Assembly: GCF_003313385.1 (NCBI RefSeq)
Contig: NZ_QMHN01000008.1
Coordinates: forward strand, 124,001 to 188,000
DNA length: 64,000 nucleotides
Direction of reading: 5' to 3'
Source: Pedobacter chitinilyticus
GTDB taxonomy: Bacteria; Bacteroidota; Bacteroidia; Sphingobacteriales; Sphingobacteriaceae
Below the pieces are notes generated by a model, which saw only the letters and a program-made list of their open reading frames with translations, was not told the DNA's origin and searched no databases. Position numbers and translations under genes: made by a program. Below are positions 11,106-28,907 of the stretch, one piece after another. Numbering within the stretch: the first letter of the stretch is position 1; every line of letters begins with the position of its first letter.

Positions 11106-11134
11106 AAGGGTGCGAGTATTAGATTTTAATATGA

Positions 11135-11377
11135 TTATAGCTTTGTTTTCCGCTTTCTGTTTCGCAACTCCGCAGCTACTTTAATACGGATGATGGACTG
11201 AACTTCATTGTAAAGCACGGCACTCTGCTCTGCTTTGCTCAACATATTGTTGGCACGTTCATAAGCCTGTTGTAGTTCGTGTAGTACTTCACGCCAGCTT
11301 GAACTTTCTTCTTCGCTTAGCACTACCAAACCGTCAACCAGTCTTTTGTGTATTGCCCTGTCTATTCCTATTGCCAA
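11135..11377 (-). CDS. Small helical hypothetical protein
   Basis: This is an 80-residue charged, helical protein (starts MAIGIDRAIHKRLVDGLVVL, ends AELRNRKRKTKL). It has no signal peptide or membrane span. A heptad-like region (WREVLHELQQAYERANNMLSK) suggests a coiled coil. It follows the IPT/NHL lipoprotein gene by 56 bp on the same strand, with a hairpin between them (11397-11428) and a terminator-like structure just behind. It is either the last gene of the operon or a separate short unit. Function unknown. Confidence 0.5.
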   Translation of the reverse strand: MAIGIDRAIHKRLVDGLVVLSEEESSSWREVLHELQQAYERANNMLSKAEQSAVLYNEVQSIIRIKVAAELRNRKRKTKL

Positions 11378-11396
11378 AACACTCCTTCATCAGGTT

Positions 11397-11428
11397 CCAA
11401 AGCGCCTATCAAAAAGACAGGCGTTTGG
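11397..11428 (-). terminator. Hairpin between IPT/NHL gene and small gene
   Basis: On the minus strand CCAAACGCCTGTC pairs with GATAGGCGCTTTGG around a ttttt loop, with one mismatch and one bulge. It starts 5 bp after the stop of the IPT/NHL lipoprotein gene. There is no classical U-tract after the stem, so it could act as a partial terminator or an RNA-stabilising 3' end. Confidence 0.45.
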
Positions 11429-11433
11429 AGGTT

Positions 11434-13608
11434 TTATTTTAAAAAGATCTTTCTTACTGCTTTATTTCCAGCATCAAGAATATAGATGTTTCCATCTTTA
11501 TCTACCGCGATATCGGCTGTTTGACCAAGTCTAGCTGTTGCCAAAGTACCGTCTGCAAATCCCATAGTAGTTTTTAACACCGTAGAAACTGTCCTCGTTG
11601 GAATATCTACCTCTCTAATGGCAAAATTAAACGTATCGCCAACATATATTTTGTTGTCATAAATAGCAATACCTCCGTTAATTCCATTAAAGAGCGCATT
11701 ACTACCTACGCCGTCGGAATAACCTCCCTCAGAATATCCCGCCCAGGAGTCTATTTTAGTTCCTGTTGGGGTAATTCTAACAATGCCATTATTGCTATTA
11801 AGCGCTTGATCTGGAAAATATAGATTTCCATTGGCATCCACCGCAGGCTTACTTGCCACCCAAGTTGGCCCGCCAATTTTACTATACGATCCAATTACGT
11901 TCACTTTATTCATTCCTAGCGCAAAACCATTGATGTTTACATAAAGGTTACCTGCCTCATCAATGGCCATTTTACCTGGAGCAAAACCAGAAACATAAAT
12001 TGTGTTTTGCCCAGATGGAGTAATTTTACGGATATGATTGGCTCCTAAATCACCTACATAAATATTGTTTTGTTTATCGACAAGGATACTGAAAGGATTA
12101 ACAAAGGTGATGTTTGTACCATTGGATTGTAAGGTGCTTACCGTACCATCGGGAGCAATTTTTTTGACTACCTTGTTTTGCGGGTCGGTTACATATACAT
12201 TGTTATTTTGATCAACTGCAATTCCTGTCATATTAGCCCCAAAAACAGCACTTGATGGACCACCCGCAAGGGTAATTACGCCCGCTCTTTTGAAAGGTGA
12301 AGGTGCTAACGCTTCTTCGCTACCTACTACTACCTTTAATTGGCCTGTACTTAAATTTGCTGGTGCATCAAGTACCAAGGTGTTTTCGGTAGCTGTTTTA
12401 ACCGTGGCTAATACGCCATTAAAATAAACTCGGTTGTTGGCCGCTGTAGTGCTAAAGCCAGAGCCTTTAATGGTAACCGTGGTACCTGCCAAACCATTAT
12501 CTGGGCTTACGGATTGGATACCCAAATTTTGGTCCTTAAACTGCGGGCCGTTGGTCGGTTGGTCATTCACTACTACCCTTACCGTTCCCGACCCTGTTCC
12601 TCCAGGAATCACTAGCTTGATTTGAGTGGCAGAAGCAGCGGTAATAGGCACCAATACATCATTGATATATACTTTATTCTCGTCTATATTTGCACTGAAC
12701 AAAGCGCCGGTAATGGTCATTTCGGCTCCTCTTGGCCCACTTAATGGTGTAACCACGTCAATAGCAGGTGGTGCTACTACGGTAAAGGTTGGGCCAGTAG
12801 TTTTTTGACCGTTAATGTTTACAGATAAAGGCCCTGTACTTACACCATCAGGGGCAGTTACGGTTAATTCGTTAGTGGTTGCCGCTATTACGGTTGCCAG
12901 TTTACCATTAAAATCAACCACGTTACCTACCGCTAAGGTTTCAAAACCTTCACCTTTGATGACTACTTTGGTGTTTTTTCCACCAGTTAAGGGCTTAATG
13001 CTGTGAATGGCCTGATAGGTAAAGTTTTGTCCAGTTGATTCCATGCCATTTACTTTCACCACAATGGGACCAAAACCAGCATCAGCAGGAACTTCGGCCA
13101 CAATCATGATGTCGGATACACTGACCACCAAGGCAGGTTTGCCATTTACCATTACGGTAGCGGGACCTTTTAAACTGCTAAATCCCGTACCAGTGATTCT
13201 GATTTGTGAACCCGCAGGGCCATTGGCTGGAGATACTTGGGTAACGCTCAATGCTTGATAGGTGTACTGACCAACCTCATAAGTTTTATCGCCATGTTTT
13301 ACACTCAGGTTGCCACTGCTGGCACCATCAGGCATACGTACTACCAATGCCTTGGCGGTAGCACTAATGACTTCGGCAGTTTTACCCGAAATGGTCGCGC
13401 TGTATTCGCCTAGTGAAGTTCCAAAACCTTCGCCTTCTATGGTAACCAAGGTGCCAGCATTACCACTATTAGGGTAATAACTGGTAATTTTAAAAGGTAC
13501 TGGTGGGATTTCGTTTTTGTCTTTTTTACAAGCGGCCAAACTCATGACCAATAGCAGCATGATCCCAATGCTTGCCTGTATGTTTACTTTAATCCTTTTC
13601 ATATTCAT
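11434..13608 (-). CDS. IPT/TIG and NHL-repeat lipoprotein
   Basis: This 724-residue lipoprotein has a lipobox LLVMSLAAC at about 19-27 followed by KKDKNE. Five IPT/TIG (immunoglobulin-like) domains follow, roughly at 40-117, 119-198, 200-277, 280-357 and 365-440. Each has the pattern SPxxGxAGtxVTIxGxGF and ends in xxGxFTV-like strands. The C-terminal half (about 445-724) is an NHL-type beta-propeller with repeats such as GIAVDQNNNVYVTDPQNKVVKKI and ADIAVDKDGNIYILDAGNKAVRKI. It is probably surface exposed and binds a glycan or protein. It sits 11 bp after the Oar-like receptor gene, so it likely works with that receptor. The ligand is unknown. Confidence 0.88.
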   Translation of the reverse strand: MNMKRIKVNIQASIGIMLLLVMSLAACKKDKNEIPPVPFKITSYYPNSGNAGTLVTIEGEGFGTSLGEYSATISGKTAEVISATAKALVVRMPDGASSGNLSVKHGDKTYEVGQYTYQALSVTQVSPANGPAGSQIRITGTGFSSLKGPATVMVNGKPALVVSVSDIMIVAEVPADAGFGPIVVKVNGMESTGQNFTYQAIHSIKPLTGGKNTKVVIKGEGFETLAVGNVVDFNGKLATVIAATTNELTVTAPDGVSTGPLSVNINGQKTTGPTFTVVAPPAIDVVTPLSGPRGAEMTITGALFSANIDENKVYINDVLVPITAASATQIKLVIPGGTGSGTVRVVVNDQPTNGPQFKDQNLGIQSVSPDNGLAGTTVTIKGSGFSTTAANNRVYFNGVLATVKTATENTLVLDAPANLSTGQLKVVVGSEEALAPSPFKRAGVITLAGGPSSAVFGANMTGIAVDQNNNVYVTDPQNKVVKKIAPDGTVSTLQSNGTNITFVNPFSILVDKQNNIYVGDLGANHIRKITPSGQNTIYVSGFAPGKMAIDEAGNLYVNINGFALGMNKVNVIGSYSKIGGPTWVASKPAVDANGNLYFPDQALNSNNGIVRITPTGTKIDSWAGYSEGGYSDGVGSNALFNGINGGIAIYDNKIYVGDTFNFAIREVDIPTRTVSTVLKTTMGFADGTLATARLGQTADIAVDKDGNIYILDAGNKAVRKIFLK

Positions 13609-13619
13609 GATAGGTTGGG

Positions 13620-16600
13620 TTAAAAGGTATATCTTAATCCGAATTGCATTTGCGCTCTTGACGCAAAATAGTCGGTACTGTAAGGCTTGCCAGGATTATT
13701 GAAGGTAAATACTGGATAGTTGCCTGCATTTTGCTGTGGTGGAAAAAGCACTGGTGTTAGCCCCACACTGCTGGTTGAGTTAAAGGTATTGGGCGAAAAA
13801 TATTGGATTCCCCAATCCTTGTTAATGAAGTTAGTTAAGTTGGTGACATCAACCGTGAGGCTAACTGATTGTGCTTTGTTTTTGCTTACCAATAATTCGT
13901 GGGCAATATGTAAATCGGCTTGTATGTTCCAAGGGGTGCGACCTTGGTTACGCTCTGTAAATTGGCCTCTTCTACTGCTCAAGTATTGGTTTCCATCAAC
14001 AAACTGGTTAAAGGCAGCTGCCTGTTGAGCAGCAGTTTGTCCTGCAACATCCTTAAAGTAGCGAACAGCTTCTTCTCTGGTGGGAATATAGGCCAATGAA
14101 ACTTGCTGTGGCAAGCCTTGAATACTGTTGTTTACAATACCATAGCTGAATGGGCTTCCCGATTGTGCACTGAAAAACAGGTTAATGCTGGTTTTGCCCG
14201 CATTTTTCCATTCGTAGCTGTAACCTAGAGTAGTGACAATCCTGTGCCTTACATCAAAATTGCTATAGGCCAAACCTGGGTTATTAGGCACCAATGCTTG
14301 ATTTAACTGCCAATTACTTTCCATAGAGTTACGTACACCGTTGCTCAAATCCTTCGATTGTCCGTAAGTATAAGAGGTACTTAGGTTCAATTTTTTGAAG
14401 AAGTTTTTGGCAATAGTTCCTGTAATGCTGTAACGATAGCCTTCGCTAGTATTGCTCAATAGGTAAATGTTAGAGAAACGGTTGTCTACCGAACCATTGT
14501 AAACGGGTTGCTGTTTGTTTTTGTCGTAGCCGTAGTACAGTGGATTATCCTGCGTGTTTAACTGTTGGAAAAGTACATCTTTAATGTTTTTAGTGTACAT
14601 CCCTTCTAAGGTAAAACGCCATTCGTTAGCGGCTTCATAGTCAATACCCAAGCTGGTACGCAATACCTGTGGCATTACAAAACCGTTGTCAACAAGGTCA
14701 ACTTGCGTACGCCCGCTATTTGGGTTATTGATTACTGCGCCATTTTGTTCAATGAAATTTCCAATGCCGTTTTGGCTTGGTCTGATGGCATCACTACCAG
14801 GCACAAAAGGTTTTTGATCGGCACGTTGATCAAAAGCGCCATAGGTATCGCCAGTATTGTAATAGGCATAGGCGAGCCATGCAAATGGAATACGACCTGT
14901 AAATAAACCAACCCCACCTCTGAAAATCAGTTTCTGATCGCCAAGGGCATCGTACCTAAACCCAAGACGTGGCGATAGCTGTATTTTGTTGAGGAAACTG
15001 TTGTTGATTCGGCTCAATGGTGTGTAGCTGTAGGTGGAACCGAAGTTTACGTCGGCATTAACGCTACGGATTTTATCACTTAGTGTTGGCATGTTAGGTA
15101 AATGAGCAATGTCGGCCCTTAAACCTGGAGTAATTTTTAATTTATCGCTCACCCTAATTTCGTCCTGTACGTATAAGCTGTACATGTTTACGTTGAAATC
15201 CGCAGCAGGATTATTCAAAATATAATCGCGGGTGTTGTTGGTATAATTATAACTTCCCCTTACACGATAAGGATTGTTGGCAATAAAGTCTTCGATGTTG
15301 AGGTAATCTACACGGCCATTCCATGCGTTCACAAAACCATAACCAATGTTGTACAGCTCATTATGCGTACCTATTAAAAGTTTGTGCCGTCCTTTAACCC
15401 AATTCAAGTTGGCAGTAAACTCCCAAGTTTTTTGCTTCATGTTAAAAATGCTGGCTTCCCTATCAGTTCCCAAATAAATGGTACTTCCTGGGGTACGCCC
15501 CATAATTTGTACTTGTGGCAGGCTTGGATCACTTAAGGGATTACGGCTATCGCTCACTTGGGTATAGCCCACTACGATATTTCCAGAAAGTTGATTGTTA
15601 AAACGGCTTTTCAGCTCGGCAACAGTACTGCTTTGGTTATTTTTTTGCTCAAAAGCCATGCTGCTGAAACGGAAATCTTGCTGGTCGCGGTCCATGTGCG
15701 TGGCCTTGCTAAAGATGGTGTTATTACGCACCGCCAATTGGTGTTTATCGTTGATGTTCCAATCTACCCTGTTAAAGAATTTTTGCGACTTGCTCCAGTT
15801 GGTGTAAACGCCCGCAGTACCCACATCAAAAATACTTCCGTAACGACTTTTGGCAATATTGGCAATGCTTTGTGCATCGGCCGTGCTTAAAATGTGACTG
15901 GTTTCGGCAGTACCCACCATGAGTTGGGTTGGATCTTGCCGACGGGTAATTTCCTCATTACTGAAGAAAAATAGCTTATTCTTGATGATGGGAAAACCGA
16001 TACGGAAACCCGCTTGATAATCATAGAAATCAGTATTCATCTTACCCAAACTCCCTACCCTATCTTTACCAGTAATGGCGGCATTACGACCAAAGCCGTA
16101 AACGGAACCACTTACTTTGTTGGTACCACTACGGGTTACAGCATTTACCGAACCGCCCGTAAAGTTACCAATCTTCACATCGAAAGGCGCTAGGTATACC
16201 TGCATGTCTTCAATGGCATCCAAGGATAGCGGATTGGTTCTGGTGCTGCTTCCTGCCATGCCCGATGTACCTGTTTGTCCGCCCAAAGATGGACTAAAAC
16301 CAATGGCATCGTTGTTAATGGCGCCATCAATGGTGACGTTGTTGTAACGGAAGTTGGTACCACCAAAACTGTTATCGCGGCTACCTTGTGGCGTTAGGCG
16401 GGTAATGTCAGTAATGCTACGGTTCAAAGTAGGCATGTTCTTCACCTGATCGGCACTGATGTTTTTACCAGCGCCATAGGTATTGGCTCTTTGGCCCGAA
16501 CCTGCTTTACCTGCAATGGTTACGGTACTCAATTGTTGTGCATTGTCCTGCAAAATGAAATTGAGCTGTTGCGCACCGCCAAGTCTAATGGTAATGTCGT

Positions 16601-16931
16601 CACGCACTTCGTTTTTCATCCCCGTTAGGGAAACCGTTAGGTGGTAAGGGCCGCCTATCCTTAGGTTATTAAGGAAGTAACGTCCATCAGCATCCGCCGC
16701 CACGGCATACTTAGTGCCCGATGGGGTGTGTATGGCCACAATGGTAGCACCTGGCAAGGGCTGCTGCTGCGCATCTTTTACCTGCCCTGTGATGGCACCA
16801 CTGGTTTCTTGCGCCCTAACGCTCAAATGGCTACCAAGTACCAAGCTAAATAAAGCAATCAGCAAACGCCAATGGCTATGATCATGCTTTATATGTATCT
16901 TTTTTTTCATTTGTTTTAATTTTATAGGCAA
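13620..16931 (-). CDS. Oar-like TonB-dependent receptor
   Basis: This 1103-residue outer-membrane receptor starts at 16931. An internal ATG at 16910 (MKKKIHIKHD) is the more likely start, since it gives a normal signal peptide ending SVRAQ. A carboxypeptidase-regulatory-like domain (about 46-128, SGAITGQVKDAQQQPLPGATIV) precedes the plug (about 150-265; PTLNRSITDITRLTPQ, FRYNNVTIDGA). The beta-barrel ends in an aromatic residue (FGLRYTF), as outer-membrane barrels do. Oar-like receptors lack a SusD partner. It is preceded by a structured element at 16930-16985 and followed by the IPT/NHL lipoprotein gene. It probably imports a peptide or other large ligand, which is not predictable here. Confidence 0.92.
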   Translation of the reverse strand: MPIKLKQMKKKIHIKHDHSHWRLLIALFSLVLGSHLSVRAQETSGAITGQVKDAQQQPLPGATIVAIHTPSGTKYAVAADADGRYFLNNLRIGGPYHLTVSLTGMKNEVRDDITIRLGGAQQLNFILQDNAQQLSTVTIAGKAGSGQRANTYGAGKNISADQVKNMPTLNRSITDITRLTPQGSRDNSFGGTNFRYNNVTIDGAINNDAIGFSPSLGGQTGTSGMAGSSTRTNPLSLDAIEDMQVYLAPFDVKIGNFTGGSVNAVTRSGTNKVSGSVYGFGRNAAITGKDRVGSLGKMNTDFYDYQAGFRIGFPIIKNKLFFFSNEEITRRQDPTQLMVGTAETSHILSTADAQSIANIAKSRYGSIFDVGTAGVYTNWSKSQKFFNRVDWNINDKHQLAVRNNTIFSKATHMDRDQQDFRFSSMAFEQKNNQSSTVAELKSRFNNQLSGNIVVGYTQVSDSRNPLSDPSLPQVQIMGRTPGSTIYLGTDREASIFNMKQKTWEFTANLNWVKGRHKLLIGTHNELYNIGYGFVNAWNGRVDYLNIEDFIANNPYRVRGSYNYTNNTRDYILNNPAADFNVNMYSLYVQDEIRVSDKLKITPGLRADIAHLPNMPTLSDKIRSVNADVNFGSTYSYTPLSRINNSFLNKIQLSPRLGFRYDALGDQKLIFRGGVGLFTGRIPFAWLAYAYYNTGDTYGAFDQRADQKPFVPGSDAIRPSQNGIGNFIEQNGAVINNPNSGRTQVDLVDNGFVMPQVLRTSLGIDYEAANEWRFTLEGMYTKNIKDVLFQQLNTQDNPLYYGYDKNKQQPVYNGSVDNRFSNIYLLSNTSEGYRYSITGTIAKNFFKKLNLSTSYTYGQSKDLSNGVRNSMESNWQLNQALVPNNPGLAYSNFDVRHRIVTTLGYSYEWKNAGKTSINLFFSAQSGSPFSYGIVNNSIQGLPQQVSLAYIPTREEAVRYFKDVAGQTAAQQAAAFNQFVDGNQYLSSRRGQFTERNQGRTPWNIQADLHIAHELLVSKNKAQSVSLTVDVTNLTNFINKDWGIQYFSPNTFNSTSSVGLTPVLFPPQQNAGNYPVFTFNNPGKPYSTDYFASRAQMQFGLRYTF

Positions 16932-16985
16932 AAAGGCAGTGCTACCAACCCCAGTGGGTTCGTCAAATTATCTCCCTGCCTTTTT
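16930..16985 (-). ncRNA. Structured RNA or attenuator element before the Oar-like receptor
   Basis: The outer arms AAAAAGGCAG and CTGCCTTTTT (16930-16939 and 16976-16985) pair perfectly. They enclose a hairpin AACCC-ACTG-GGGTT (about 16947-16960, minus strand) flanked by unpaired segments. It lies between the FAS1 gene and the start of the receptor gene and overlaps that start by a base or two. Read as RNA it has a closing stem ending in U residues, so it may be a terminator/attenuator or a conserved structured element. It is not a riboswitch class that I can name. Confidence 0.5.
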
Positions 16986-17001
16986 GATCATGGTTATCTT
17001 C

Positions 17002-18000
17002 CTATTGTGTTAATCGTAAACCAGTATCGATAATGTGCAATACGCCGTTTCCTGTAAGGATATCCCTTTTTGACAGGTTCACATCGGCGGTATTTCCAAT
17101 GCCTCGTAAGCTGATGCTGGTAAAACCACCTGTTGAATTGGGTTCGGTGATTAGTTTAACATTGATGCTGTTGCCATCTATCATACTTTGCTTAGCGGTA
17201 TTTGTGGGTCCAGTACTCAAAATATAATCGTACACAAATCGCCTATCTGCTACAATGTGGTAATCTACCAATCGCTTTAGTTCAGCTACATCAGTTTGAT
17301 TAATTTGTTGAATACTTTGATAGCCTAAGGCCTGCATGGCACTATTGGTGGGTGCAAAAATGGTATAAGGACCTTTACCGTTCAGTTTCTCTAAAACGCC
17401 AGAGGCCTTTAAGGCTTGGGCAAAAAGGGTTAAACTGCTTTCGGCCGCAATGGCATCACCAATCAAATCGTGCAGGTAAGGCGTTAATACCCGATCAATC
17501 ACCTGCACCAATCCGTTTGATGCGGTAATGTTTTTTGATAGGATTTTTGAACCATTGATGGTTAGCACTGTATCTGTTCCCTTTACCCAATGCGTGGCAT
17601 AAAGCTTTCCGCCACGTGAGCGCAACTCCTGATTAAATAGAAAGGGTAATTTATTGAGTTCATATTTACCGTCTAAGGTGTGATAGTTAGCAATACGTGC
17701 AATGGTGGTGGCATTAGCCGCTAATACGCCCACGGCACCATTGTAGCCAGCTTTGGTAAATGCGGCATCTGAAGGAGCCAATAAGGTATATGGACCCGCT
17801 CCCTGTTGCAATTCTTTATCGAGGGTGCTTCTTCTTAATGCGGCATTAAAAGCAGAAAGGTTAAAATTATCTGCCACCACCATATTAATCTTGTTTTGAT
17901 CGAATTCACTAGCGTCTTTATCCTTACGACAAGAAATAGCCAAGGATGCCAGCAGGAATAAGGCTATCAATTTTAGGTTATGCTTAGAATGAAATCTCAT
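17002..18000 (-). CDS. FAS1 (fasciclin) lipoprotein A
   Basis: This protein has two FAS1 domains. The frame extends up to 18087, but the start at 18000 (MRFHSKHNLKLIALFLLASLAISC) is better: it gives a lipoprotein signal and avoids overlap with the upstream gene, whose stop is only 1-2 bp away. Domain 1 contains AGPYTLLAPSDAAFTKAG and SNGLVQVIDRVLTPY. Domain 2 contains KGPYTIFAPTNSAMQALG and GNGVLHIIDTGL. These are the H1 and H2 motifs of FAS1. The mature protein (about 310 residues) is likely anchored to the outer membrane and mediates adhesion or ligand capture. It is the third of three consecutive FAS1 genes. Confidence 0.9.
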   Translation of the reverse strand: MRFHSKHNLKLIALFLLASLAISCRKDKDASEFDQNKINMVVADNFNLSAFNAALRRSTLDKELQQGAGPYTLLAPSDAAFTKAGYNGAVGVLAANATTIARIANYHTLDGKYELNKLPFLFNQELRSRGGKLYATHWVKGTDTVLTINGSKILSKNITASNGLVQVIDRVLTPYLHDLIGDAIAAESSLTLFAQALKASGVLEKLNGKGPYTIFAPTNSAMQALGYQSIQQINQTDVAELKRLVDYHIVADRRFVYDYILSTGPTNTAKQSMIDGNSINVKLITEPNSTGGFTSISLRGIGNTADVNLSKRDILTGNGVLHIIDTGLRLTQ

Positions 18001-18001
18001 A

Positions 18002-19333
18002 TTAATGGAATTTAAAGCCCTTGGGAATAAGTAAATGATCAACCGCATGGATGGGACCGTTGAGGGTATTGATGTCTGTTTGAACAACGTTGGCCGCTGG
18101 AAAGGTGCTATCTTTTATTTTTAACTGTACAGCAGTTCCATTTACAGAAAAACCAAAGGGCATTTTATAGGCATAAGCAATTTGTGCCGTACCGCCAATA
18201 TTTACGTAATATTCACTCAGAAATTCTGGGCGTAAATCGTTGCTGTAAAACATGGTACTATTTGCCGCTGCCAAACCATAGCTAGGATCTCGGGGCCCAA
18301 ACATTCTTCCCCAGTTATAGTGATAGTTAAATAGCGTATCGGTGGGAAAATTACCTTCTGGCGAAAAGCTCATGTCGTCAAAACGGACATTATTATGCTC
18401 ATTAAACCTCATCACATCTGCCACCGACTGGAAACCTGCATTTTTAAAAGCTTCATCGGTTGGAGCAAACAAAGTATTCATCGTAATATTTGGCCCAATA
18501 AATCCTTGGTAAATAGGCCTATTGATACCACCCCAGAAATCTCCAAAGAAATCACGTTGTTTATACATGTCCTTAATTTCATCTGGACTTGGTTTATAGC
18601 CAAACCACATTTCCATTTCCGTTGATACTTTATCTAGGTACAGTTCATCGCAAGCCTTTAAAACGCCCACAAATATGCTGAACCTGGCATCGGCCTCTAA
18701 CGTTTCTTTAAATGTTTTGGTAGGTCTTTCTACCGCTTTGCTGATGAAATAAACCGCTCCGTTGGTTGCAGGCTGGTAATTAAGTTTTCCTACTGATTTG
18801 CCATAAATCAACAGTTCATCGCCTTTTGTTGCCAAATACAATCTATGGAAGTACAAATCGTAAGTCTGTCCGTTGTTCAAGTTACTTTCATAAAACGGCA
18901 TGTAAAGATCTTTTTGCTCCAATAAGGTTTTTAGTGGGATGCTATATGCACCTAATTGTTCTTTACGCAGCACTTTATTACTGGTGTAAAACATCAATAA
19001 ACTGTCTACGTCGTTCACAGCCATTTGGGCAATACTGGCGTTGGTAATACCTGCAGCGGTAAGGGCAGCATCATCTGGCACAAAAACCGTGAACTGTGTA
19101 TTTTTACCCATAGCCTCCAATCTTGCCTTCATGGTGCTTTTTTGCCAAGCCGCATAAAATATCTTAGCTGGAGAGGCCGACAACAATTGTTCGATACTTT
19201 GAGTGGCATCGCTTTGATAAGGTACCTGAGCCCCCTCTGGATCAGGCATAAATTCGGATTTTCGGCATGCGGTTATCATCATTACCGATAACAATAAGAA
19301 TGAAATGATGCTCGTATTTTTTATATTCCTCAT
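18002..19333 (-). CDS. FAS1 (fasciclin) lipoprotein B
   Basis: This 443-residue lipoprotein (MRNIKNTSIISFLLLSVMMITACRKSEF) has a FAS1 domain at about 45-210 (NTQFTVFVPDDAALTAAGI, GAVYFISKAVERP). A second, looser one with large insertions covers about 220-440 (MNTLFAPTDEAFKNAGF, GPIHAVDHLLIPKGF). The middle has an insertion rich in Trp, Tyr and Phe (DFFGDFWGGINRPIYQGF). Spacing to both neighbours is a few bases, which supports cotranscription and a shared complex with FAS1 A and C. Confidence 0.88.
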   Translation of the reverse strand: MRNIKNTSIISFLLLSVMMITACRKSEFMPDPEGAQVPYQSDATQSIEQLLSASPAKIFYAAWQKSTMKARLEAMGKNTQFTVFVPDDAALTAAGITNASIAQMAVNDVDSLLMFYTSNKVLRKEQLGAYSIPLKTLLEQKDLYMPFYESNLNNGQTYDLYFHRLYLATKGDELLIYGKSVGKLNYQPATNGAVYFISKAVERPTKTFKETLEADARFSIFVGVLKACDELYLDKVSTEMEMWFGYKPSPDEIKDMYKQRDFFGDFWGGINRPIYQGFIGPNITMNTLFAPTDEAFKNAGFQSVADVMRFNEHNNVRFDDMSFSPEGNFPTDTLFNYHYNWGRMFGPRDPSYGLAAANSTMFYSNDLRPEFLSEYYVNIGGTAQIAYAYKMPFGFSVNGTAVQLKIKDSTFPAANVVQTDINTLNGPIHAVDHLLIPKGFKFH

Positions 19334-19338
19334 GTTAT

Positions 19339-20388: not shown

Positions 20389-20399
20389 TTCTCCGTGTT

Positions 20400-21599
20400 T
20401 TAATAAATTGGTGGTGCGTATTTACGTTGAATGGTAGTGAGGTAAATTCTACCGTTAACCACCTCTAGCGTATTTACGGTGGCAAAAGTCCTAGGGTTAT
20501 CTTTTCCAGAATGTACGTTGACCAACAAATTGGGTAGCACCGTGCCGTTTTCATTACTCTGTAAGCTTACCTTGCCATTTAATACACAGTTGACCACGGC
20601 CCAGTTACTTCCAGTGTTTATCTGACTGTCGTGTATTGGATTGTTGGAGATATCCATCCCTGGCAATAGAAACTCAAACCTTTGCCAAATATCCGTGACC
20701 ACACCGTTAGCTTTACTGCTGCTCCAAAGTGGGAAGCTTACATAAGGACTAACTGTTGCTTCAGTATTGTTTCGTTTTACATTGGTCAAGTATTTTCCTT
20801 TATACCCTGGCACGGTTAAGCCACGATGGTTAAGGTTACTTTGGCTTTCGTAAAGAGATACATAAACATTCATATCATCTTTGATGCCTCCCTTAAAACT
20901 CTTTAAAGCAAAATCATCGTCTTTAAACTGATCGTCAGCTTGCCAAAAGCCTTTGGCGCTCATGTTATAGAAGTTCACATAAACCAGCGAATCTGACAAT
21001 GGAAGCTTATAGAAGTTTTCATGTCTGAGTAAAACCCCGCTTGTTTTCTTCTCGAAATCTTTCTGTAAGAGGTGAAGCGTGTATACTTCTTTACTGGTTA
21101 AATTAATGGTAGTATCAACCAAAATATCCTTTTTAAGATGCGTTTCTAATTGAAAAAAAGGAATGGTGTTTTTGGGGCGATAAGCAAATACTACCCTCAA
21201 TTTGCCCGAAGGCACCTGTGCCCAACTGCTCAGGTCGAAACCATTTAATATTGGTCCCACCAATACATTTTCTTTTCCTGGGTACTCTGGGTTATTTACC
21301 GAAGTACTGTTTCCAATATGTGAAGGGTAAGGCGGCGCATAAGCGTCTCTTTTATCCAAGAAATCGCCCACAATTTCTGCTCCAGTTAAATTACCATTGG
21401 CATCGGTAGTTGGGTTAATCAACATACAGAAAAATGGCACCTTGTCATCTTTAGTACCTAAGGTTTGTACATAGTTGAGGTTATTGAACACACGCAGATA
21501 GGCAGGTTGATCTATTTTGGTATAATCAACCTTCCTGCATCCCGTAGCAATTACCATAGCCAATAGGCTTAAATAAATACTTAAAATCTGTTTCTTCAT
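20400..21599 (-). CDS. Surface lipoprotein, possibly DUF4397-related
   Basis: This 399-residue lipoprotein (MKKQILSIYLSLLAMVIATGC) begins with a DUF4397-like strand pattern (AYLRVFNNLNYVQTLG). The rest is beta-rich with no catalytic motif. The stop of the upstream gene and this start overlap by one base (TAATG on the minus strand), so translation is coupled. The context (receptor, lipoproteins, FAS1 proteins) suggests a cell-surface accessory of the STN-type receptor. I cannot assign a specific function. Confidence 0.7.
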   Translation of the reverse strand: MKKQILSIYLSLLAMVIATGCRKVDYTKIDQPAYLRVFNNLNYVQTLGTKDDKVPFFCMLINPTTDANGNLTGAEIVGDFLDKRDAYAPPYPSHIGNSTSVNNPEYPGKENVLVGPILNGFDLSSWAQVPSGKLRVVFAYRPKNTIPFFQLETHLKKDILVDTTINLTSKEVYTLHLLQKDFEKKTSGVLLRHENFYKLPLSDSLVYVNFYNMSAKGFWQADDQFKDDDFALKSFKGGIKDDMNVYVSLYESQSNLNHRGLTVPGYKGKYLTNVKRNNTEATVSPYVSFPLWSSSKANGVVTDIWQRFEFLLPGMDISNNPIHDSQINTGSNWAVVNCVLNGKVSLQSNENGTVLPNLLVNVHSGKDNPRTFATVNTLEVVNGRIYLTTIQRKYAPPIY

Positions 21600-23314
21600 T
21601 ACTTGGTATGTTTAATAATGATCATTTTGGCCTTGTTTGCAGATGTAGCATTTGTGCTAGTCCCTATCAATGCCACCGTGTACACGCCAGGTTCATCTAC
21701 AGGCAAGCCTTTGTTTGGCTTTTGATATAAGGCTTTGTTGGCAATAAAGGAGTCGTGTGTAAGGGTTTCGATATCATTTGCCCAAGTACCTGGCACTACA
21801 TTTGGCTTAGACCTGTAAGCTAAAATGTTGTAAGCTTCTCCAGTAGCAAAACCACTAATATAAGGCTGTTCAAAAACAGGCAATCCAGGTTGTATATTCA
21901 CTACTGCATTGGAATTGTATTGTCCGTTATCAAACGTGAAGGTGATGTAAGGATTCCCTATCGAAAGATTGAGGAAGCGCTTAGAAAAGAAGAACTTTTT
22001 AGCCTGTCGAGCATAAGTAGCATCATCCGTAGGCCCCATAAATGAGGTTCCACTTAAATCGTTAGCGACCAATAACAACTTTGCCTTACCCGTTTGATCT
22101 GGATGCAACCAAGCCGTATAGTTTTGAGAAGGGCGAAGTTCTTGCGTTGAAGTAGCCAACACATTTCCTGAAGCATCTAAAGCTTCAACGGTGTAATTGC
22201 CTTTAATCAAATTGGCATAATCGCTTCCACTGCCGTAAGCAATATTATTGGACAGTAGTTTTCCGTTTACCCTTAAACCCATCACTTGTCCAGCCATGGC
22301 ATTAGCTGCCTGCAACCTGAAATAGGTTTGATTTGCTGGGGCGCTCACATCTGTAATTACCCTAAAAGCATTTTGATAAAGGAAAGAGTTGTTGCCAATA
22401 TCATCTACCAAATAATCAAAACGTTGTGGTGCTACCAAAATGGTGTACACGCCACCTGGCTGATAAGTTTGTATGGGTGCATATACCTGATGGCTCACTT
22501 TGTAATAATCCTTTGGAATACTAGAGGTAGCTGGATCAATGAGTCCTAGCGAATAATCTTCGCTACTGCCTGGCGAAGGCAATTGTTTGCCATCTTGCAA
22601 TAACACTCTAAACTGGTAAGTGCCATATGGCAGTTCTACATATTCAGAAACTTTGGCTGCCGCAGTAATGTTATTGGTGGCATTGTTCACTAATGTTCCG
22701 TCAGCAAAGGCTAAAGAAACTGGCCCACGTAAATCTTCTTGCGGCCCACTTAAACCATAGGCGGGATTATTGATGTTTGCTGAGAGGTTAACTATTCTGA
22801 TTTTAAAATGATCAGGCTTAGATGGCGAGGCCACTCCTCTAGGAATCGCTACCACTTCCGACTGTCCGTTGGTATAGCGTGTAGGCATCAACACATAGTC
22901 TGTTGGCGTGTTGTAATCGTTTTTAGCCACCATGCTAATATCAAAATTGCCATTGGTTTCGTTGATGTTTCTGACTCCAAACTTTAATGTTGCTGTTTCT
23001 TGTTGGCTAAACAAATTTTGCGGTACCGACCAAGTTTGTCCTAATCTTCCGTCAGTTGGAAAATAAGAGGTACCTGGATATTTATAGCTATCTGGGCCTG
23101 TGGACGGACGAACAATAAAACTTGTTAAACTATCACCATTGGCTACCACTTGGTTAAATCCCGCAAAGTTAATGATGCGAACATTAGAATTCACGCGGTT
23201 TTCTGTCAGTATCCTATTGTCTACCTTGGTGTCTATCTTGTCTTTTTTACAAGCTTGCGCTAATAGCGTGAGGCAAAAGCACAGACTTAAAATTTTATAA
23301 CTTAATGTTCTCAT
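21599..23314 (-). CDS. DUF4397-domain-like lipoprotein
   Basis: This is a 571-residue lipoprotein (lipobox LTLLAQAC followed by KKDKID). It has DUF4397-like features: SNVRIINFAGFNQVV at the N-terminus, then repeats of the type VSEYVELPYGTYQFRVLLQDG, KGNYTVEALDASGNVLATSTQELRPSQNYTAWL and DEPGVYTVALIGTS. These all belong to the beta-sandwich seen in Bacteroidota surface lipoproteins. Start and stop codons overlap the neighbouring genes by one base on each side, so this gene is tightly coupled to the STN receptor upstream. It may take the ligand-holding role that SusD has in Sus systems; that role is inference. Confidence 0.75.
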   Translation of the reverse strand: MRTLSYKILSLCFCLTLLAQACKKDKIDTKVDNRILTENRVNSNVRIINFAGFNQVVANGDSLTSFIVRPSTGPDSYKYPGTSYFPTDGRLGQTWSVPQNLFSQQETATLKFGVRNINETNGNFDISMVAKNDYNTPTDYVLMPTRYTNGQSEVVAIPRGVASPSKPDHFKIRIVNLSANINNPAYGLSGPQEDLRGPVSLAFADGTLVNNATNNITAAAKVSEYVELPYGTYQFRVLLQDGKQLPSPGSSEDYSLGLIDPATSSIPKDYYKVSHQVYAPIQTYQPGGVYTILVAPQRFDYLVDDIGNNSFLYQNAFRVITDVSAPANQTYFRLQAANAMAGQVMGLRVNGKLLSNNIAYGSGSDYANLIKGNYTVEALDASGNVLATSTQELRPSQNYTAWLHPDQTGKAKLLLVANDLSGTSFMGPTDDATYARQAKKFFFSKRFLNLSIGNPYITFTFDNGQYNSNAVVNIQPGLPVFEQPYISGFATGEAYNILAYRSKPNVVPGTWANDIETLTHDSFIANKALYQKPNKGLPVDEPGVYTVALIGTSTNATSANKAKMIIIKHTK

Positions 23315-26300
23315 TATTTAAACAGGTTATAGGTAAAGCCTACCATGATTTCGGCACCTCGTTTGAAACTACGGTTGATATACTCATTACCATACCATTT
23401 TCCTCCAGTTTCCGGATTGGCGTAAACTGTTTTAATTGCTGGGTTAAGAATGTTTTTAGCGTATCCCTTAAACAATATCTTTTTATTGATGCGTTGGCTG
23501 AAAACGAGATCCAATACGGGTACTGGTTGGCTGTACAAATCGGGTTCACCCGTAAGATTGATCTGTACCAAACGCTCGCCTACCATATTAAAGGTTGCCG
23601 TAAGGTCAGTTCCAGACTTCTCGTTGTTATAGTTTAACCAAGCGTTTATGGAATAAGGTGCCTGCTCAAAAAGTGGGCTATTTTTAGGGGTATATCTATC
23701 TAAAGAACGGCTAGCCTCATATCTGGCAGGGGTCTTTTTGATATCGCTTTGCGCCAACAATAGGTTGGATCCAATGTAGAAGTTCTTTAAAGGATCGAAC
23801 ATTGTTCCAAGGTTTTTCACTACTTCCAACTCAATTCCCCAAACACGACCAATATTAGGGTCATTTTGAAACTGAATGGTTGGAAACTCTGGATAGGTTG
23901 CTGCTAACCCCGCTGTTTTTAAACTAAACACCTTTACCAATTGGTTTTCGATGCGTTTTCCGAAAGCAGAAATGGCCAACACTTCTCCTTTTGCAGGGAA
24001 CCATTCCCATCTGAAATCGAGGTTTTGGGTTTGCTGGTTCACCAAGTTTGGATTTCCAACGACCAAGCCCATTTGAAAGGCATCAAATTCGAAAACGTTG
24101 GTAATTTCTCTGAGCTCTGGTCTAGCCAAAGTAGAGTTATAGGCCGCACGGAAATTCATGTTATCCTTTAAGGTATAGGTGGCATTTACGGAGTAAAATG
24201 GTTTATAATCCGTTTGATATACCGAGTTAGGATTAATAGGATTTAAAGGCACGCCACTATTGCCTGCTGTTAAAGCAGGGTCCAAGAAAACACCTGCGGT
24301 ATCAACGCTAGAACCAATATTGGTCATTTCGAAACGTACCCCACCAGTTAGGCGTAGCTTTTCGGTCAGTTTCAAATCCAGCATTCCGTAAAAAGCATTG
24401 GTTTCGTAATAACCTTTATAGTTGTTTGGTGATTTTTGACTGTTGTAAAGAAATCCACCAATAGGCATCATTCCCTCACCTTGTCCAGCACCCGGAACTT
24501 TCACACCGATGATTTCATTGCTCACCAAGCGGTCTAAATTTCCTTGTACGTCATACAACGGCACTGCCTTGTTGCTGGTAAAGTTAGATCCTGGCAAGAA
24601 AAGCTGGTTTTCTGTAAAGGTTCTCTCTCTGAAAAGATAGTTAGCACCTGTTTTTAATTGCTGAACCTGTCCAAAAAGCTTAAACGGAATGCTTAAATCA
24701 GCCTTGTAGTTATAGTTATCTTCTTCAAGGTTACGCCATCTTCGGCCGTTAGGTTCGGCTTGGATAATGCCATAGCTACCAAAACCATTTACATAACCCG
24801 AAGTTAGGGCATATAAATGCGGGCTATAAGTAGGTACACTAGGAGTATTTCCTGCGCCTACTACAGGTCGGTTATACCAACCACCACCTCTAGGGGTATA
24901 GTCTGCCAAACTAGCAAAGCGAAAATCGGGATCATTTTGTTTTGAATTGGAAGTGGCTACGTTATAGCTTAAACGTGGCGACAACTCGCTTTGCAATAAC
25001 TTGTGTTCGCCTTGTAAGTTAAAGGTATTGAGGTTACGGAAAGTTTGTTTAAGCGAATAAGTGGTACTGGCTACCTCTCCTGGCAACCCCGTATATTCGT
25101 ATCTTCCATTCAGGTGCGTAGCCTTGGTTTCGCCACCCCAACTGCCCAGGTACTGCATACTGATTTCGTGACGAGGGTTGAAACGATAAGTAAGCCCTGC
25201 CAAAGTACCATAGTTAAGGGTTTCGGTCCCCGTATTTTCCTTATAGGTTTGATATTTACCCATGTAAAGGCTGTTAGGGGTAATATAGTTAGGGATATTA
25301 CGGAAGCTATACACATCTGGATTTCCAGTAACTACACCTTGGTATATACTGTATTGTGTTAAATCGCCACCGTTGATATCGGTAATTCTTCTATAATAGT
25401 TACCTCCCAGAATTAATCCCAAAGTGTGCTTTTTAAACATCTTGTAACTGTTGCCATAGGTGGCAGAGTACAATTGGTTTAAGGGTGCTTTTTTGTATTG
25501 GGTAGTCATCACTGGATCAAAGCTTTGCATAATGCGATTGACACGGTTGACTTCTTGGTAGGCATTAGGACTATAATTGCTATTGGCTACCATATTTTGG
25601 ATGGAGCTTAAACCGCCTGGGTATTGCTTTGCAAGGTTTTTGAAATCTTGCGACAGGTTTTTATCGTTGATTTTTGTACCTAGTACGCCCATATCGCTGT
25701 TCCAAAAACTATTGTACTGGCCACTCATGCCTACATTGGAGTTCAGTCCTGTTTGTGCAATAATTTCAAAGGTTTCCTTTTCGGGCACCGATTTGGTTTT
25801 CAATTCCACAATCCCCGCAGCTGCATCAGCAGGCTTATCTGGCGCTACTGTTTTATAAATGGTGATGTTATCTAAAAGAGATGCTGGAACCAAATCCAAA
25901 GGAATAGCACTCCTATCTGGATCTGAAGAAGCCAAACGCACACCGTTTAATTGTCCAATGACGCTTCTATCGCCCAACCCACGGATGGCCACATATTTAT
26001 CATCGGTTACCGTTACCCCCGAAACACGTTGTAAAGCCTGCGTGGTGGTGATACTGGCCGTACGCTCAATCATTTGCGCCGAGATGGCATCCTGTACAAT
26101 GGCGGAGTTTTTACGTTCGTCCAATACTGATACATCTGTGCTGGCTCGTCTGCGTGCCTGCACCACTACTTCGCCTAAGGTTGTAGAAGAGGCGTTTAAT
26201 GAAATGGTAAGGTTTTTGGTATTGGCATCAACCTTTATTTCTCGGGTTTCGTAACCGATATAGGAAATGACCAAAGTGGCACCCCCTTCTGGTATGGTCA

Positions 26301-26874
26301 ATTTGAACTTACCATCGGCATCTGTAGATACGGCATTGTTGGTGCCTTTAATTTTAATACCTACACCTATTAAGGTTTCTTTGGTTTTGGCATCTATCAC
26401 CGTACCTGCAATCACAATTGGCACAGGTTTTTTAGTGATGACCACATAGCCTTCTACCACTTTATATTGAAGGTTGGTATGAGCTAAAACCAAGTTCAAA
26501 GCCTCTGCCACGGTAATTTCCGTGTTCAAGCTGATTTTTTTGGAGATGCTTTCCAAGAGCTCAACCTGTGCATTAATTTGTACTTTACTTTGTTTTTCAA
26601 TAGTAGCTAAACTATTGCCTAGTGTGGCATTATCCAGCTTTAGCTTAATTTTTTGGTTTAAATTTTGACCGAGTGCACTATTAGCCAAAAGTACTCCAAC
26701 ACAGGCAAGCTTGATAGCTATCAGAAGAAACGAGCACTTCATATAGAAATAAATTTTATCTGCGGGCAGATGGTCTTTAAGCACCCGACGGTATTTCTTT
26801 CGTATACGGAGGACCAGGGTTGTTAACTGCCTCACATATCGAGAAGAAATATGCAGGTGTAATAATTTTTGCAT
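23314..26874 (-). CDS. TonB-dependent receptor with STN (sigma-signalling) domain
   Basis: This is an outer-membrane transducer and transporter of 1186 residues. The N-terminal 44 residues before M45 are basic; the signal peptide MKCSFLLIAIKLACVGVLLANSALGQ starts there (ATG at 26742), so the true start may be 26742. An STN domain (about 75-147; LGNSLATIEKQSKVQIN, YVVITKKP) contacts the anti-sigma factor. It is followed by a carboxypeptidase-like domain (about 155-235), a plug with the signature RRRASTDVSVLDER and VAIRGLGDRSVIGQLNGV, and the barrel. It lies directly after the FecR gene, giving a complete signalling cascade. No SusD gene follows; the lipoprotein genes come next. Confidence 0.92.
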   Translation of the reverse strand: MQKLLHLHISSRYVRQLTTLVLRIRKKYRRVLKDHLPADKIYFYMKCSFLLIAIKLACVGVLLANSALGQNLNQKIKLKLDNATLGNSLATIEKQSKVQINAQVELLESISKKISLNTEITVAEALNLVLAHTNLQYKVVEGYVVITKKPVPIVIAGTVIDAKTKETLIGVGIKIKGTNNAVSTDADGKFKLTIPEGGATLVISYIGYETREIKVDANTKNLTISLNASSTTLGEVVVQARRRASTDVSVLDERKNSAIVQDAISAQMIERTASITTTQALQRVSGVTVTDDKYVAIRGLGDRSVIGQLNGVRLASSDPDRSAIPLDLVPASLLDNITIYKTVAPDKPADAAAGIVELKTKSVPEKETFEIIAQTGLNSNVGMSGQYNSFWNSDMGVLGTKINDKNLSQDFKNLAKQYPGGLSSIQNMVANSNYSPNAYQEVNRVNRIMQSFDPVMTTQYKKAPLNQLYSATYGNSYKMFKKHTLGLILGGNYYRRITDINGGDLTQYSIYQGVVTGNPDVYSFRNIPNYITPNSLYMGKYQTYKENTGTETLNYGTLAGLTYRFNPRHEISMQYLGSWGGETKATHLNGRYEYTGLPGEVASTTYSLKQTFRNLNTFNLQGEHKLLQSELSPRLSYNVATSNSKQNDPDFRFASLADYTPRGGGWYNRPVVGAGNTPSVPTYSPHLYALTSGYVNGFGSYGIIQAEPNGRRWRNLEEDNYNYKADLSIPFKLFGQVQQLKTGANYLFRERTFTENQLFLPGSNFTSNKAVPLYDVQGNLDRLVSNEIIGVKVPGAGQGEGMMPIGGFLYNSQKSPNNYKGYYETNAFYGMLDLKLTEKLRLTGGVRFEMTNIGSSVDTAGVFLDPALTAGNSGVPLNPINPNSVYQTDYKPFYSVNATYTLKDNMNFRAAYNSTLARPELREITNVFEFDAFQMGLVVGNPNLVNQQTQNLDFRWEWFPAKGEVLAISAFGKRIENQLVKVFSLKTAGLAATYPEFPTIQFQNDPNIGRVWGIELEVVKNLGTMFDPLKNFYIGSNLLLAQSDIKKTPARYEASRSLDRYTPKNSPLFEQAPYSINAWLNYNNEKSGTDLTATFNMVGERLVQINLTGEPDLYSQPVPVLDLVFSQRINKKILFKGYAKNILNPAIKTVYANPETGGKWYGNEYINRSFKRGAEIMVGFTYNLFK

Positions 26875-26929
26875 ATTTTTGATCGTTATGGTTTTTCGCC
26901 TTTGGCGGATATCTATTAACTTAATCTTG

Positions 26930-26998
26930 AGGTTGTGTGTCGTCGAAAAGCAAGCAACCTAAAGCATTGGCGTCCTCCTCAAAAGGGAGGGCGTTTTA
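26930..26998. other. Inverted repeats between FecR and receptor genes
   Basis: Two structures lie in the 142-bp gap: AGGTTG and CAACCT arms at 26930 and 26955, and GGCGTCCTCC facing GGGAGGGCG at about 26969-26993. The T-run after the second lies on the plus strand, where no gene ends. They could be mRNA structures that set receptor expression below that of the FecR gene. Low certainty. Confidence 0.35.
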
Positions 26999-27016
26999 TT
27001 TTGGTAGTCGAGATAT

Positions 27017-28060
27017 TTACATAGTTTTCCTTTCCTTGTTATTAATATGGATTTCCTTTCCATTGATCTGATAGTGGAAATCGCCAGCTACACTTAAAAT
27101 ATTCATGATTTTTACGATGGAGATATTGGTGGTAAGATTCACTTTAATCAATCTTTTAGCCAAAGTAGGATTAACAATTTCAATGTTAACGTTGTACCAT
27201 CGCTCTAAAATTTTGGCAATGTCGGCCAGTTTGGTTTCATCAAAATGAAGCTTGCCATCTTTCCAACCTGTTACCTCTGTTACGTCAACATTGGCCAATA
27301 CCTTCTTAGCGGTATTTTCGTTCCAAGTCACCATTTCCCCTGGCAACAACATGGCTATCGGCTGTATTTGGTGGTTAATATGTCTATCAACCCTTACTTT
27401 TCCAGTACTTACCAATACTTTAATAGGCTGCCCAGCAAAAGCATCAATTTTAAAGGAGGTTCCTAATACTTGGGTACTGATATTTCCTGTATGGATAATG
27501 AATGGCTTTTTGGGATTTTTGGTCACTTCAAAAAATGCTTCACCTTCCAATGCTACTTCTCTGATATTACTTGCAAACTTTTTAGCGAAGCGTATTTTAC
27601 TCATTGCGCCTAAGTAAACAATAGAACTATCAGGCAAAATGATTTGGGTACGCTGCCCCTTGGGGTTCTGCATTTCGGTAAAAGCAAATGTTTGCTCAAC
27701 AGTAGTCTCCTTTTTTGAACTTACTTGCCAAAAAGCAACGCCTAAAATCAATACTAACCATACCGCAGCGTAACGCCAAAATTGATTATGCTGATAAAAA
27801 GGTTTTATTTGGGGTGTAGGTGCCGAAGCGTCCTCGAAAATCCGTTGATCTAACATTTGTTTCCAACGTTGTTGTTGTTGAGATGTAGCGTTATTTTGTT
27901 GCGGATTTATTTGGTGTGCCCATTCTTCGTCCCATATTTGGTCGAAAAGCTGTTGAGCATCATCCTTCTTTAGTATAGCCCTTACTTGTTTCAATTCTTC
28001 TGGACTGCATTGTCCATCCAAATACTTTTTAATCAAGGCTTTTTGGTTTTCTAAACTCAT
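27017..28060 (-). CDS. FecR-family anti-sigma factor
   Basis: This 347-residue inner-membrane protein has a cytoplasmic N-terminal part (about 1-92) that would bind the sigma factor. One membrane span follows (about 94-113, FWRYAAVWLVLILGVAFW). The periplasmic FecR domain (about 125-225) contains IILPDSSIVYLGAMSKI, GEAFFEVTKNPKKPFIIHT and VLGTSFKI. The C-terminal DUF4974/STN-like domain (about 265-340) is typical of Bacteroidota FecR proteins. It lies between the ECF sigma gene and the STN receptor gene, the classic order for receptor-triggered release of sigma. Confidence 0.93.
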   Translation of the reverse strand: MSLENQKALIKKYLDGQCSPEELKQVRAILKKDDAQQLFDQIWDEEWAHQINPQQNNATSQQQQRWKQMLDQRIFEDASAPTPQIKPFYQHNQFWRYAAVWLVLILGVAFWQVSSKKETTVEQTFAFTEMQNPKGQRTQIILPDSSIVYLGAMSKIRFAKKFASNIREVALEGEAFFEVTKNPKKPFIIHTGNISTQVLGTSFKIDAFAGQPIKVLVSTGKVRVDRHINHQIQPIAMLLPGEMVTWNENTAKKVLANVDVTEVTGWKDGKLHFDETKLADIAKILERWYNVNIEIVNPTLAKRLIKVNLTTNISIVKIMNILSVAGDFHYQINGKEIHINNKERKTM

Positions 28061-28155
28061 TTGTTCTATCCTTCATTAATAAAGACACCAGTTTTAAAGG
28101 GATAGGGTGAGTGGGAAATGAAAAAAAGTTTTGCTTCGCTATTGAGCTTTATTTT

Positions 28156-28308
28156 AGCCACAAATACACAGATAATATTTGGTTAGAAAATAGGCATTGC
28201 AAGGCTTGGTAACAATTTGCAAATAAGATTGAAGCTATTAACTAAAATAAGATAAATAATAATCGACAAATCATTGATGAGCTAAAAATCATCTGTGCAT
28301 CTGTGGCT
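28156..28308. repeat. Inverted repeat pair between FecR and sigma genes
   Basis: AGCCACAAATACACAGAT (28156-28173) and ATCTGTGCATCTGTGGCT (28291-28308) are inverted near-copies about 117 bp apart. The right arm ends 5 bp before the sigma gene stop (minus strand). It could act as a terminator-like structure behind the sigma gene. A similar arm occurs widely in Bacteroidota genomes, to my general knowledge. Confidence 0.5.
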
Positions 28309-28313
28309 GTTAT

Positions 28314-28907
28314 CTATTTTAAGAAATAGCATACAAGGAAGGCCAAGGTAATATCTACATGTTCCTGCATGTTTTCCCTCAGGTATTTTAAAGAAACCAA
28401 CATTTGGCTTTTAATGGTATTGATAGATAACCCCATCTTTTCGGCAATTTGCGGATAGGTCAATTGTTCTTCCCTACTTAATTGGAAAATCTTTTTGCGT
28501 TGAGGGCTTAGCTGCTCCAATTTTAATTGGTACAAGTGCTCCAGTTCTTTGTAGGCCATTTGTTCGTCCACCGCATCTTTAGCATGTTCAAGTTCACCTA
28601 AACTGTCAATATCTACTGTAGCCAACTGCTTTTTGCGGATATGATTGAACAGGGTATTCTTCATCGCTGCAAAGAGGTAGTTTTTAACCTCACCTTTAAT
28701 TTGTATTTCGGCACGTCGGCGCCAAATGTTGTGCATTACATCCATGGCTAGTTCTTCAGCCACTTCGGTTTGCTTAAGGTAATGAAGTGAAAACTTGTAC
28801 AGGGATTCGAAGTAACGGGCAAATAATTCATTGAACGCCCTAAGGTTATCCTCACTGCATTCCTGCATCAATAACGTATCGGAAAGTTTCGTATAATCTT
28901 TGCTCAT
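28314..28907 (-). CDS. ECF (sigma-70 family) RNA polymerase sigma factor
   Basis: This is a 197-residue ECF sigma factor. Region 2 includes FNELFARYFESLYKFSLHYLKQTEVAEELAMDVMHNIWRRR. Region 4 is near 125-175, with LSPQRKKIFQLSREEQLTYPQIAEKMGLSINTIKSQMLVSLKYLRE as the helix-turn-helix. Regions 1.1 and 3 are absent, as expected. It starts the minus-strand locus and should direct transcription of the receptor/FAS1 operon when FecR is released by the STN receptor. A TAATTTTG box (28929-28936, minus strand) lies about 22 bp before the ATG and could be its promoter. Confidence 0.93.
   Translation of the reverse strand: MSKDYTKLSDTLLMQECSEDNLRAFNELFARYFESLYKFSLHYLKQTEVAEELAMDVMHNIWRRRAEIQIKGEVKNYLFAAMKNTLFNHIRKKQLATVDIDSLGELEHAKDAVDEQMAYKELEHLYQLKLEQLSPQRKKIFQLSREEQLTYPQIAEKMGLSINTIKSQMLVSLKYLRENMQEHVDITLAFLVCYFLK

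Follow-up and report, generated by a model that had tools for sequence, protein, structure and literature searches.

A candidate self-inducing outer-membrane capture operon in Pedobacter chitinilyticus with a non-SusC receptor and DUF4397 and FAS1 lipoproteins

Organization of the locus

The window analyzed here is a 64,000-nt stretch from Pedobacter chitinilyticus, a soil bacterium of the Pedobacter group (contig NZ_QMHN01000008.1, positions 124,001–188,000). At 11434–28907, its minus strand carries an operon of ten genes that encode, in order, a sigma factor, FecR, a TonB-dependent receptor (TBDR1), the lipoproteins LpA, LpB, FAS1a, FAS1b and FAS1c, an Oar-like receptor (Oar) and a TIG/NHL lipoprotein; coordinates are those of the window. 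The extracytoplasmic function (ECF) sigma factor (28314–28907) belongs to the Bacteroidota family TIGR02985 (NCBIfam, 131.9 bits, cut-off 126.4; Pfam sigma70 r2/r4), and the FecR anti-sigma factor (27017–28060) is recognized by Pfam FecR and FecR_C. A predicted hairpin of 11 pairs (26969–26995, no strand) lies in the gap before TBDR1 (23314–26874), which has STN and CarboxypepD_reg-like domains and resembles TIGR01782 receptors. LpA (21599–23314), a DUF4397 protein with a lipobox Cys, occupies the SusD position and is followed by the orphan lipoprotein LpB (20400–21599). FAS1a (19339–20388), FAS1b (18002–19333) and FAS1c (17002–18000, open frame from 18087) each match Pfam Fasciclin in two stretches. 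The outer-membrane receptor Oar (13620–16910, open frame from 16931) matches Pfam OMP_b-brl_4 (149.8 bits) and CarboxypepD_reg, and the last conserved gene encodes the TIG/NHL lipoprotein (11434–13608), with a lipobox, IPT repeats (Pfam TIG, 183 bits) and an NHL propeller (Pfam NHL). The preliminary description of this DNA had placed these genes on one strand and had seen the receptor followed by two lipoproteins, three FAS1 proteins, a second receptor and an IPT/NHL protein, without SusD; Pfam assignments and coordinates bear this out.

That description had also drawn the unit from the sigma factor to a small helical protein, with overlaps or very small gaps. From the receptor onward the packing is indeed tight (TBDR1/LpA −1, LpA/LpB −1, LpB/FAS1a 11, FAS1a/FAS1b 5 and Oar/TIG-NHL 11 bp), but the sigma/FecR and FecR/TBDR1 gaps are wide (253 and 142 bp) and the small open reading frame is excluded. 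This 80-aa frame (11135–11377) has zero relatives in 40 other genomes or in the loci carrying the cassette; it was therefore dropped as a subunit, and the unit is taken to end at 11434. The signal peptide and the lipobox SLAISC make the ATG at 18000, and not the TTG at 18087, the probable start of FAS1c, so that an 86-bp overlap disappears, and the signal peptide of Oar likewise points to the ATG at 16910 as its probable start. With these starts, the FAS1b/FAS1c and FAS1c/Oar gaps are 1 and 91 bp, respectively. An alternative start of TBDR1 at M45, a residue invariant in the TBDR1 alignment, is possible. The genes around the operon are ordinary and all on the plus strand; one flank encodes an AraC-type regulator and an alcohol dehydrogenase, the other an O6-methylguanine methyltransferase and an S41 peptidase.

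TBDR1 differs from SusC

TBDR1 contains the Pfam domains CarbopepD_reg_2, Plug and TonB barrel, and its STN domain scores 27.3 bits, just below the cut-off of 28.4. Its best NCBIfam model is TIGR01782, which describes receptors of the Xanthomonas/Caulobacter type. The alignment spans almost the full model (223.7 bits) but stays under its cut-off of 310, and TBDR1 differs from these receptors by its additional STN and CarboxypepD_reg-like domains and by the series of lipoproteins that goes with it. The SusC/RagA model TIGR04056 reaches only 80.7 bits (cut-off 368) over residues 154–290, and the NCBIfam search gave no match to the TIGR04057 signature. Because the SusC models fail here while real SusC controls pass (745.7 bits in locus L071 and 612.3 bits in L038, both with the signature), TBDR1, as judged from its sequence, is not a SusC. 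No operon gene has a Pfam match to SusD, although control SusDs were detected in L071, L079 and L039. A Pfam search confined to the operon and its five window neighbours likewise reveals no carbohydrate-active enzymes.

Lipoproteins of the operon

The three FAS1 proteins score 109.6, 58.5 and 144.3 bits against Fasciclin (cut-off 22). LpA carries a single DUF4397 domain (50.7 bits, cut-off 30.6), and its AlphaFold model is nearly all-beta except for the signal helix (mean pLDDT 68.6). LpB matches no Pfam or NCBIfam family; its Cys21 and Lys23 are invariant in 16 sequences. Across all six lipoprotein families, the lipobox Cys is in most members followed by K and acidic residues, which would fit a surface-export signal known for Bacteroidota. 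Profile comparison aligns LpA with LpB at the N-terminus alone (38% probability), and the two were therefore rejected as clear homologues.

The top structure match of the LpA and LpB models is the extracellular domain of mammalian PepT1/PepT2, with TM-scores of about 0.1–0.2 by query length and, for LpB, no match below E 0.001. We read this resemblance only as a likeness of predicted beta-sandwiches and rejected it as evidence for function or for a peptide ligand. Sequence relatives in the PDB are absent for LpB and Oar and confined to three hits for LpA (E near 0.7–0.8), and no plasmid or viral carriage of LpB was found.

A conserved gene order in Pedobacter and Sphingobacterium

A scan with FAS1a, using one genome per species, recovered 20 loci, distributed over Sphingobacterium, Pedobacter and a single Pseudoflavitalea, nearly all with the same gene order. 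LpB searches gave further loci, several of which coincide with loci of the FAS1a scan. Outside the genome of the window, the order is conserved in Pedobacter and Sphingobacterium and also in two genomes that are more distant, Pseudoflavitalea and G308. TBDR1-LpA-LpB-FAS1a-FAS1b-FAS1c appears in every further locus read that covers it, and Oar-TIG/NHL comes next wherever the sequence reaches, except in L038/L039, L059 and L040. Such recurrence argues that the locus is not a product of chance. L038/L039 lack Oar but keep the core and TIG/NHL; L059 has Oar, with no TIG/NHL match seen; in L040 the FAS1 genes number four, and the available stretch contains no TIG/NHL match. In L038/L039, a SusC gene stands directly after TIG/NHL (about 15600–20980), followed in L039 by SusD and Peptidase_Mx1. 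In L033 (Sphingobacterium multivorum NCTC11343, 13426–18962), either real frameshifts or sequencing errors break Oar and TIG/NHL up into several frames.

The distribution is narrow. LpB occurs in 10 of the 59 genomes of the relatives set, own genome included, all from the genus of the window (10 of 36), but in only 2 of 394 genomes drawn evenly from the phylum, namely its own and G308; a wide spread across the phylum was therefore rejected. Some genomes hold multiple cassettes, three in G029 and two side by side in G032. One cassette of G029, L060, has all six core genes nearest to those of the foreign loci L066/L067 and not to its sister cassettes. In the open-licence papers searched, we found no description of this gene set, and hence no earlier catalogue entry of the kind that the preliminary description had named as refuting it. 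The operon would seem to be related to the nutrient-uptake machines of this phylum but itself uncatalogued.

Sigma factor, FecR and STN vary together

The adjacent ECF sigma factor, FecR and STN-bearing receptor form a matched set of the FecI-FecR-FecA type; the STN domain lies below its Pfam cut-off yet covaries with FecR. FecR identity follows that of STN (Mantel r 0.93; 0.91 as a partial correlation on the barrel) and that of the sigma factor (0.90; 0.89), each with 0 of 2000 permutations, counts that are not probabilities since the permutations treat related loci as exchangeable. Its correlation with the TBDR1 barrel is much lower (0.45). With the barrel controlled, FecR shows no tie to LpA (0.06) or LpB (0.05) and little to FAS1a (0.15), and FAS1b keeps a weak partial correlation (0.24, 17 of 2000 permutations). 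Compared with the window, most Sphingobacterium loci retain 81–90% identity in plug and barrel but only 21–29% in STN and 28–31% in FecR. Because FecR tracks the sigma factor and STN, while the Sphingobacterium STN diverges with the barrel kept, sigma factor, FecR and STN appear to be replaced, or to diverge, as one unit.

Upstream of the sigma factor gene, an alignment of seven loci contains, by eye, a TAnnTTTG-like element, read as a candidate housekeeping promoter of Bacteroidota. In the FecR-TBDR1 gap, the stem is predicted from seven Pedobacter loci, and two of its seven predicted pairs have changed on both sides. Within the operon, sigma-70-like matches equal chance (43 vs 44.8 expected), and internal promoters were rejected. 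As far as DNA motifs can tell, no FAS1-specific promoter stands out that would point to FAS1 transcription independent of the sigma factor, the other observation that had been named as refuting a common unit.

Receptor barrel and five lipoproteins are inherited together

Across the 153 locus pairs that have all eight structural genes, median pairwise identity is 72.7% for TBDR1, 72.0% for Oar, 68.0% for LpB, 57.4% for FAS1c, 55.7% for TIG/NHL, 53.2% for LpA, 51.9% for FAS1a and 45.5% for FAS1b. The two receptors are thus the slowest and most surface lipoproteins evolve faster, FAS1b being the fastest of the eight. In gene trees of 17 loci, LpA, LpB, FAS1a-c and the portion of TBDR1 outside the signalling region disagree in only 0–2 well-supported splits per pair. 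FAS1a, FAS1b and FAS1c are each monophyletic for 16 of 16 members, with clade supports of 0.96, 0.95 and 0.99, respectively. Because these three separate clades include the distant loci L040 and L058, the FAS1 genes are, on this phylogeny, old and distinct partners and not recent duplicates. Nearly concordant core trees and separate FAS1 clades are as expected for putative subunits of one complex, and support the earlier proposal of one regulated unit in which the lipoproteins partner the receptor.

These data also bear on the alternative that the FAS1, TIG and DUF4397 lipoproteins make up an adhesive layer set by the sigma/FecR/STN receptor, with the receptors anchoring or sensing instead of importing. 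Fasciclin domains have been described as cell-adhesion domains (work cited in PMC7661554); the unit has six lipoproteins and no enzyme, the lipoproteins diverge faster than the receptors, and remote structural matches of LpA, at weak scores, include Bacteroides fimbrial/adhesion proteins. However, LpA, LpB and FAS1a-c share the inheritance of the TBDR1 barrel and not that of the signalling region, and TBDR1 is among the two best conserved proteins, which would be needless for a mere anchor. We consider a surface adhesion complex unlikely.

Oar is loosely tied to the core

Oar has the features of the Oar subclass, an N-terminal CarboxypepD_reg extension (PF13620) and an Oar-type barrel (PF25183). 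It shares this architecture, including the N-terminal CarboxypepD_reg domain, with Oar of Myxococcus xanthus (PMC6434023), but it lies downstream of FAS1 lipoprotein genes and its plug is undetected by Pfam (PF07715 is not listed). In a profile comparison, the CarboxypepD_reg and plug regions of Oar and TBDR1 align at 86.5% probability. The Oar tree conflicts with core gene trees in 1–4 well-supported splits, compared with the 0–2 among core genes, and the L059 Oar is 77–80% identical to Pedobacter copies whose LpA/FAS1 proteins are only about 30–43% identical to those of L059. Because of these additional conflicts and its absence from L038/L039, Oar seems only loosely tied to the core and partly independent. 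The preliminary description had counted it as part of the set; it does stand downstream of FAS1c, but its membership is looser than that of the core genes. Three modules can be told apart on the sequence evidence: sigma/FecR/STN; the barrel with LpA, LpB and FAS1a-c; and the partly independent Oar.

One may therefore ask whether the locus is composed of two neighbouring units, with Oar and TIG/NHL as an independent pair beside the sigma/FecR/TBDR1 core, the two travelling together without working together. The Oar tree conflicts would fit such a division, as would the presence of TIG/NHL without Oar in L038/L039 and of Oar without a TIG/NHL match in L059. Against it, in every other locus that extends far enough, Oar comes immediately after the final FAS1 gene with a short gap, and the correlation between the pairwise identities of Oar and those of TBDR1 is 0.97. 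On balance, we find two separately working units doubtful.

Oar genes also occur in other settings. In the genome of the window, locus L093 (C9:56000-75000) contains a second Oar gene (6110–10666, minus strand; 751 bits to the cassette Oar profile) and then, on the same strand, an astacin-family metallopeptidase gene, an arrangement reminiscent of Oar/protease secretion in Myxococcus. Locus L080 of G201 (7134–14524, minus strand) strings together genes for Oar, a DUF4397-like lipoprotein and FAS1 proteins, after which comes a gene with SBP_bac_3 and SLT domains; the Oar gene overlaps the DUF4397 lipoprotein gene and is upstream of the FAS1 gene. As a general rule this set was rejected, since a search with its DUF4397 lipoprotein gave a full-length match in G201 alone.

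A proposed mechanism for capture and uptake

We consider it fairly probable that the ten genes constitute a self-inducing operon for outer-membrane capture and uptake, SusCD-like but built without SusC or SusD. In the proposed mechanism, TBDR1 would bind its ligand at the cell surface and its STN domain would relay occupancy to FecR, which would activate the cognate ECF sigma factor and so raise transcription of the operon. LpA, LpB and the three distinct FAS1 lipoproteins would gather around the TBDR1 barrel, or above it, to form the part that captures the ligand, standing in for SusD and accessory binding proteins. TIG/NHL may serve as a further surface-binding lipoprotein, and Oar as a second, replaceable outer-membrane pore for the same substrate. 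The signalling part most likely follows the established FecI/FecR/FecA scheme, by analogy and as backed by co-variation, whereas a lipoprotein complex with the TBDR1 barrel is inferred from co-inheritance; the direction of import, the logic of induction and the role of Oar are likewise inferred. As ligand, a peptide or protein is weakly favoured, because Peptidase_Mx1 lies beside SusCD in L039 and peptidase genes lie beside related receptors in the genome of the window.

Several points weigh against this reading. Neither the unit nor its window neighbours include a recognizable substrate-specific enzyme, so that the putative uptake role rests on receptor homology. The AlphaFold model of LpB, mostly beta, has low confidence (pLDDT 58.4), and the permutation counts carry the exchangeability caveat given above. 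Furthermore, M. xanthus needs its Oar to secrete the protease PopC, not for import (PMC6434023). That Oar exports a protein here or helps to place lipoproteins on the surface is nevertheless improbable: the Myxococcus precedent, the metallopeptidase gene adjoining the second Oar gene and the gene overlap in G201 speak for it, but no gene for an exported cargo could be made out in the unit, and the tree conflicts and the loss of Oar from L038/L039 with the core kept indicate that the core does not need Oar.

Returning to the capture-and-uptake operon, we tentatively suggest that it might represent a distinct class of Bacteroidota capture machine, with a non-SusC receptor, a fixed complement of five lipoproteins at the surface, of which two are beta-rich and three are FAS1 subunits that cannot replace one another, and signalling heads and accessory pores exchangeable as modules. 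SusCD is the textbook surface uptake complex of the phylum, and a conserved, duplicated alternative that has three FAS1 subunits of its own would give Bacteroidota fasciclin proteins a testable role. Co-variation of sigma factor, FecR and STN apart from the transport part would also provide a natural experiment on the re-wiring of surface-signalling modules.

Comparison with known systems

Like SusCD/RagAB loci, the operon combines an ECF sigma factor, FecR, an STN receptor with a CarboxypepD_reg-like domain and surface lipoproteins in one unit. In contrast to them, its receptor is not SusC, there are no SusD and no glycan-degrading enzymes, and DUF4397, orphan and FAS1 lipoproteins are found instead. 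It may thus be SusCD-like in its working, yet it lacks two defining features of SusCD, SusC and SusD. Other genomes have recurrent cassettes (L071, L072, L073, L077 and L078) in which a long FAS1 gene is followed by SusC-like and SusD-like genes and then by one or two FAS1 genes (FAS1-SusC-SusD-FAS1-FAS1). They share with the operon an outer-membrane receptor and several FAS1 proteins in one strand-wise block, but differ in having a true SusC and SusD, family-confirmed in L071 only, and longer FAS1 proteins, the tree placing those of L071 and L072 apart from the FAS1a/b/c clades. In Flavobacterium johnsoniae, PUS III (PMC8115612) also unites a sigma factor, a FecR-like regulator, a TonB-dependent transporter/SusC-like receptor and hypothetical lipoproteins in one induced cluster; it differs in being phosphate-regulated and in containing a protease and a phosphodiesterase, and the passages considered mention no FAS1 or DUF4397 gene.

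Elsewhere in the genome of the window, L091 (C2:1364500-1384000) holds two sets of sigma factor, FecR and TIGR01782-like receptor next to each other; a purple acid phosphatase-like gene accompanies one, and two small orphan proteins accompany the other. Beyond the end of the operon, the intergenic DNA at 10300–10800 of the window displays, by eye, several imperfect repeats of a segment containing CATCTCGACCGTAG and GAGAGATCTTTGAACTTTGC.

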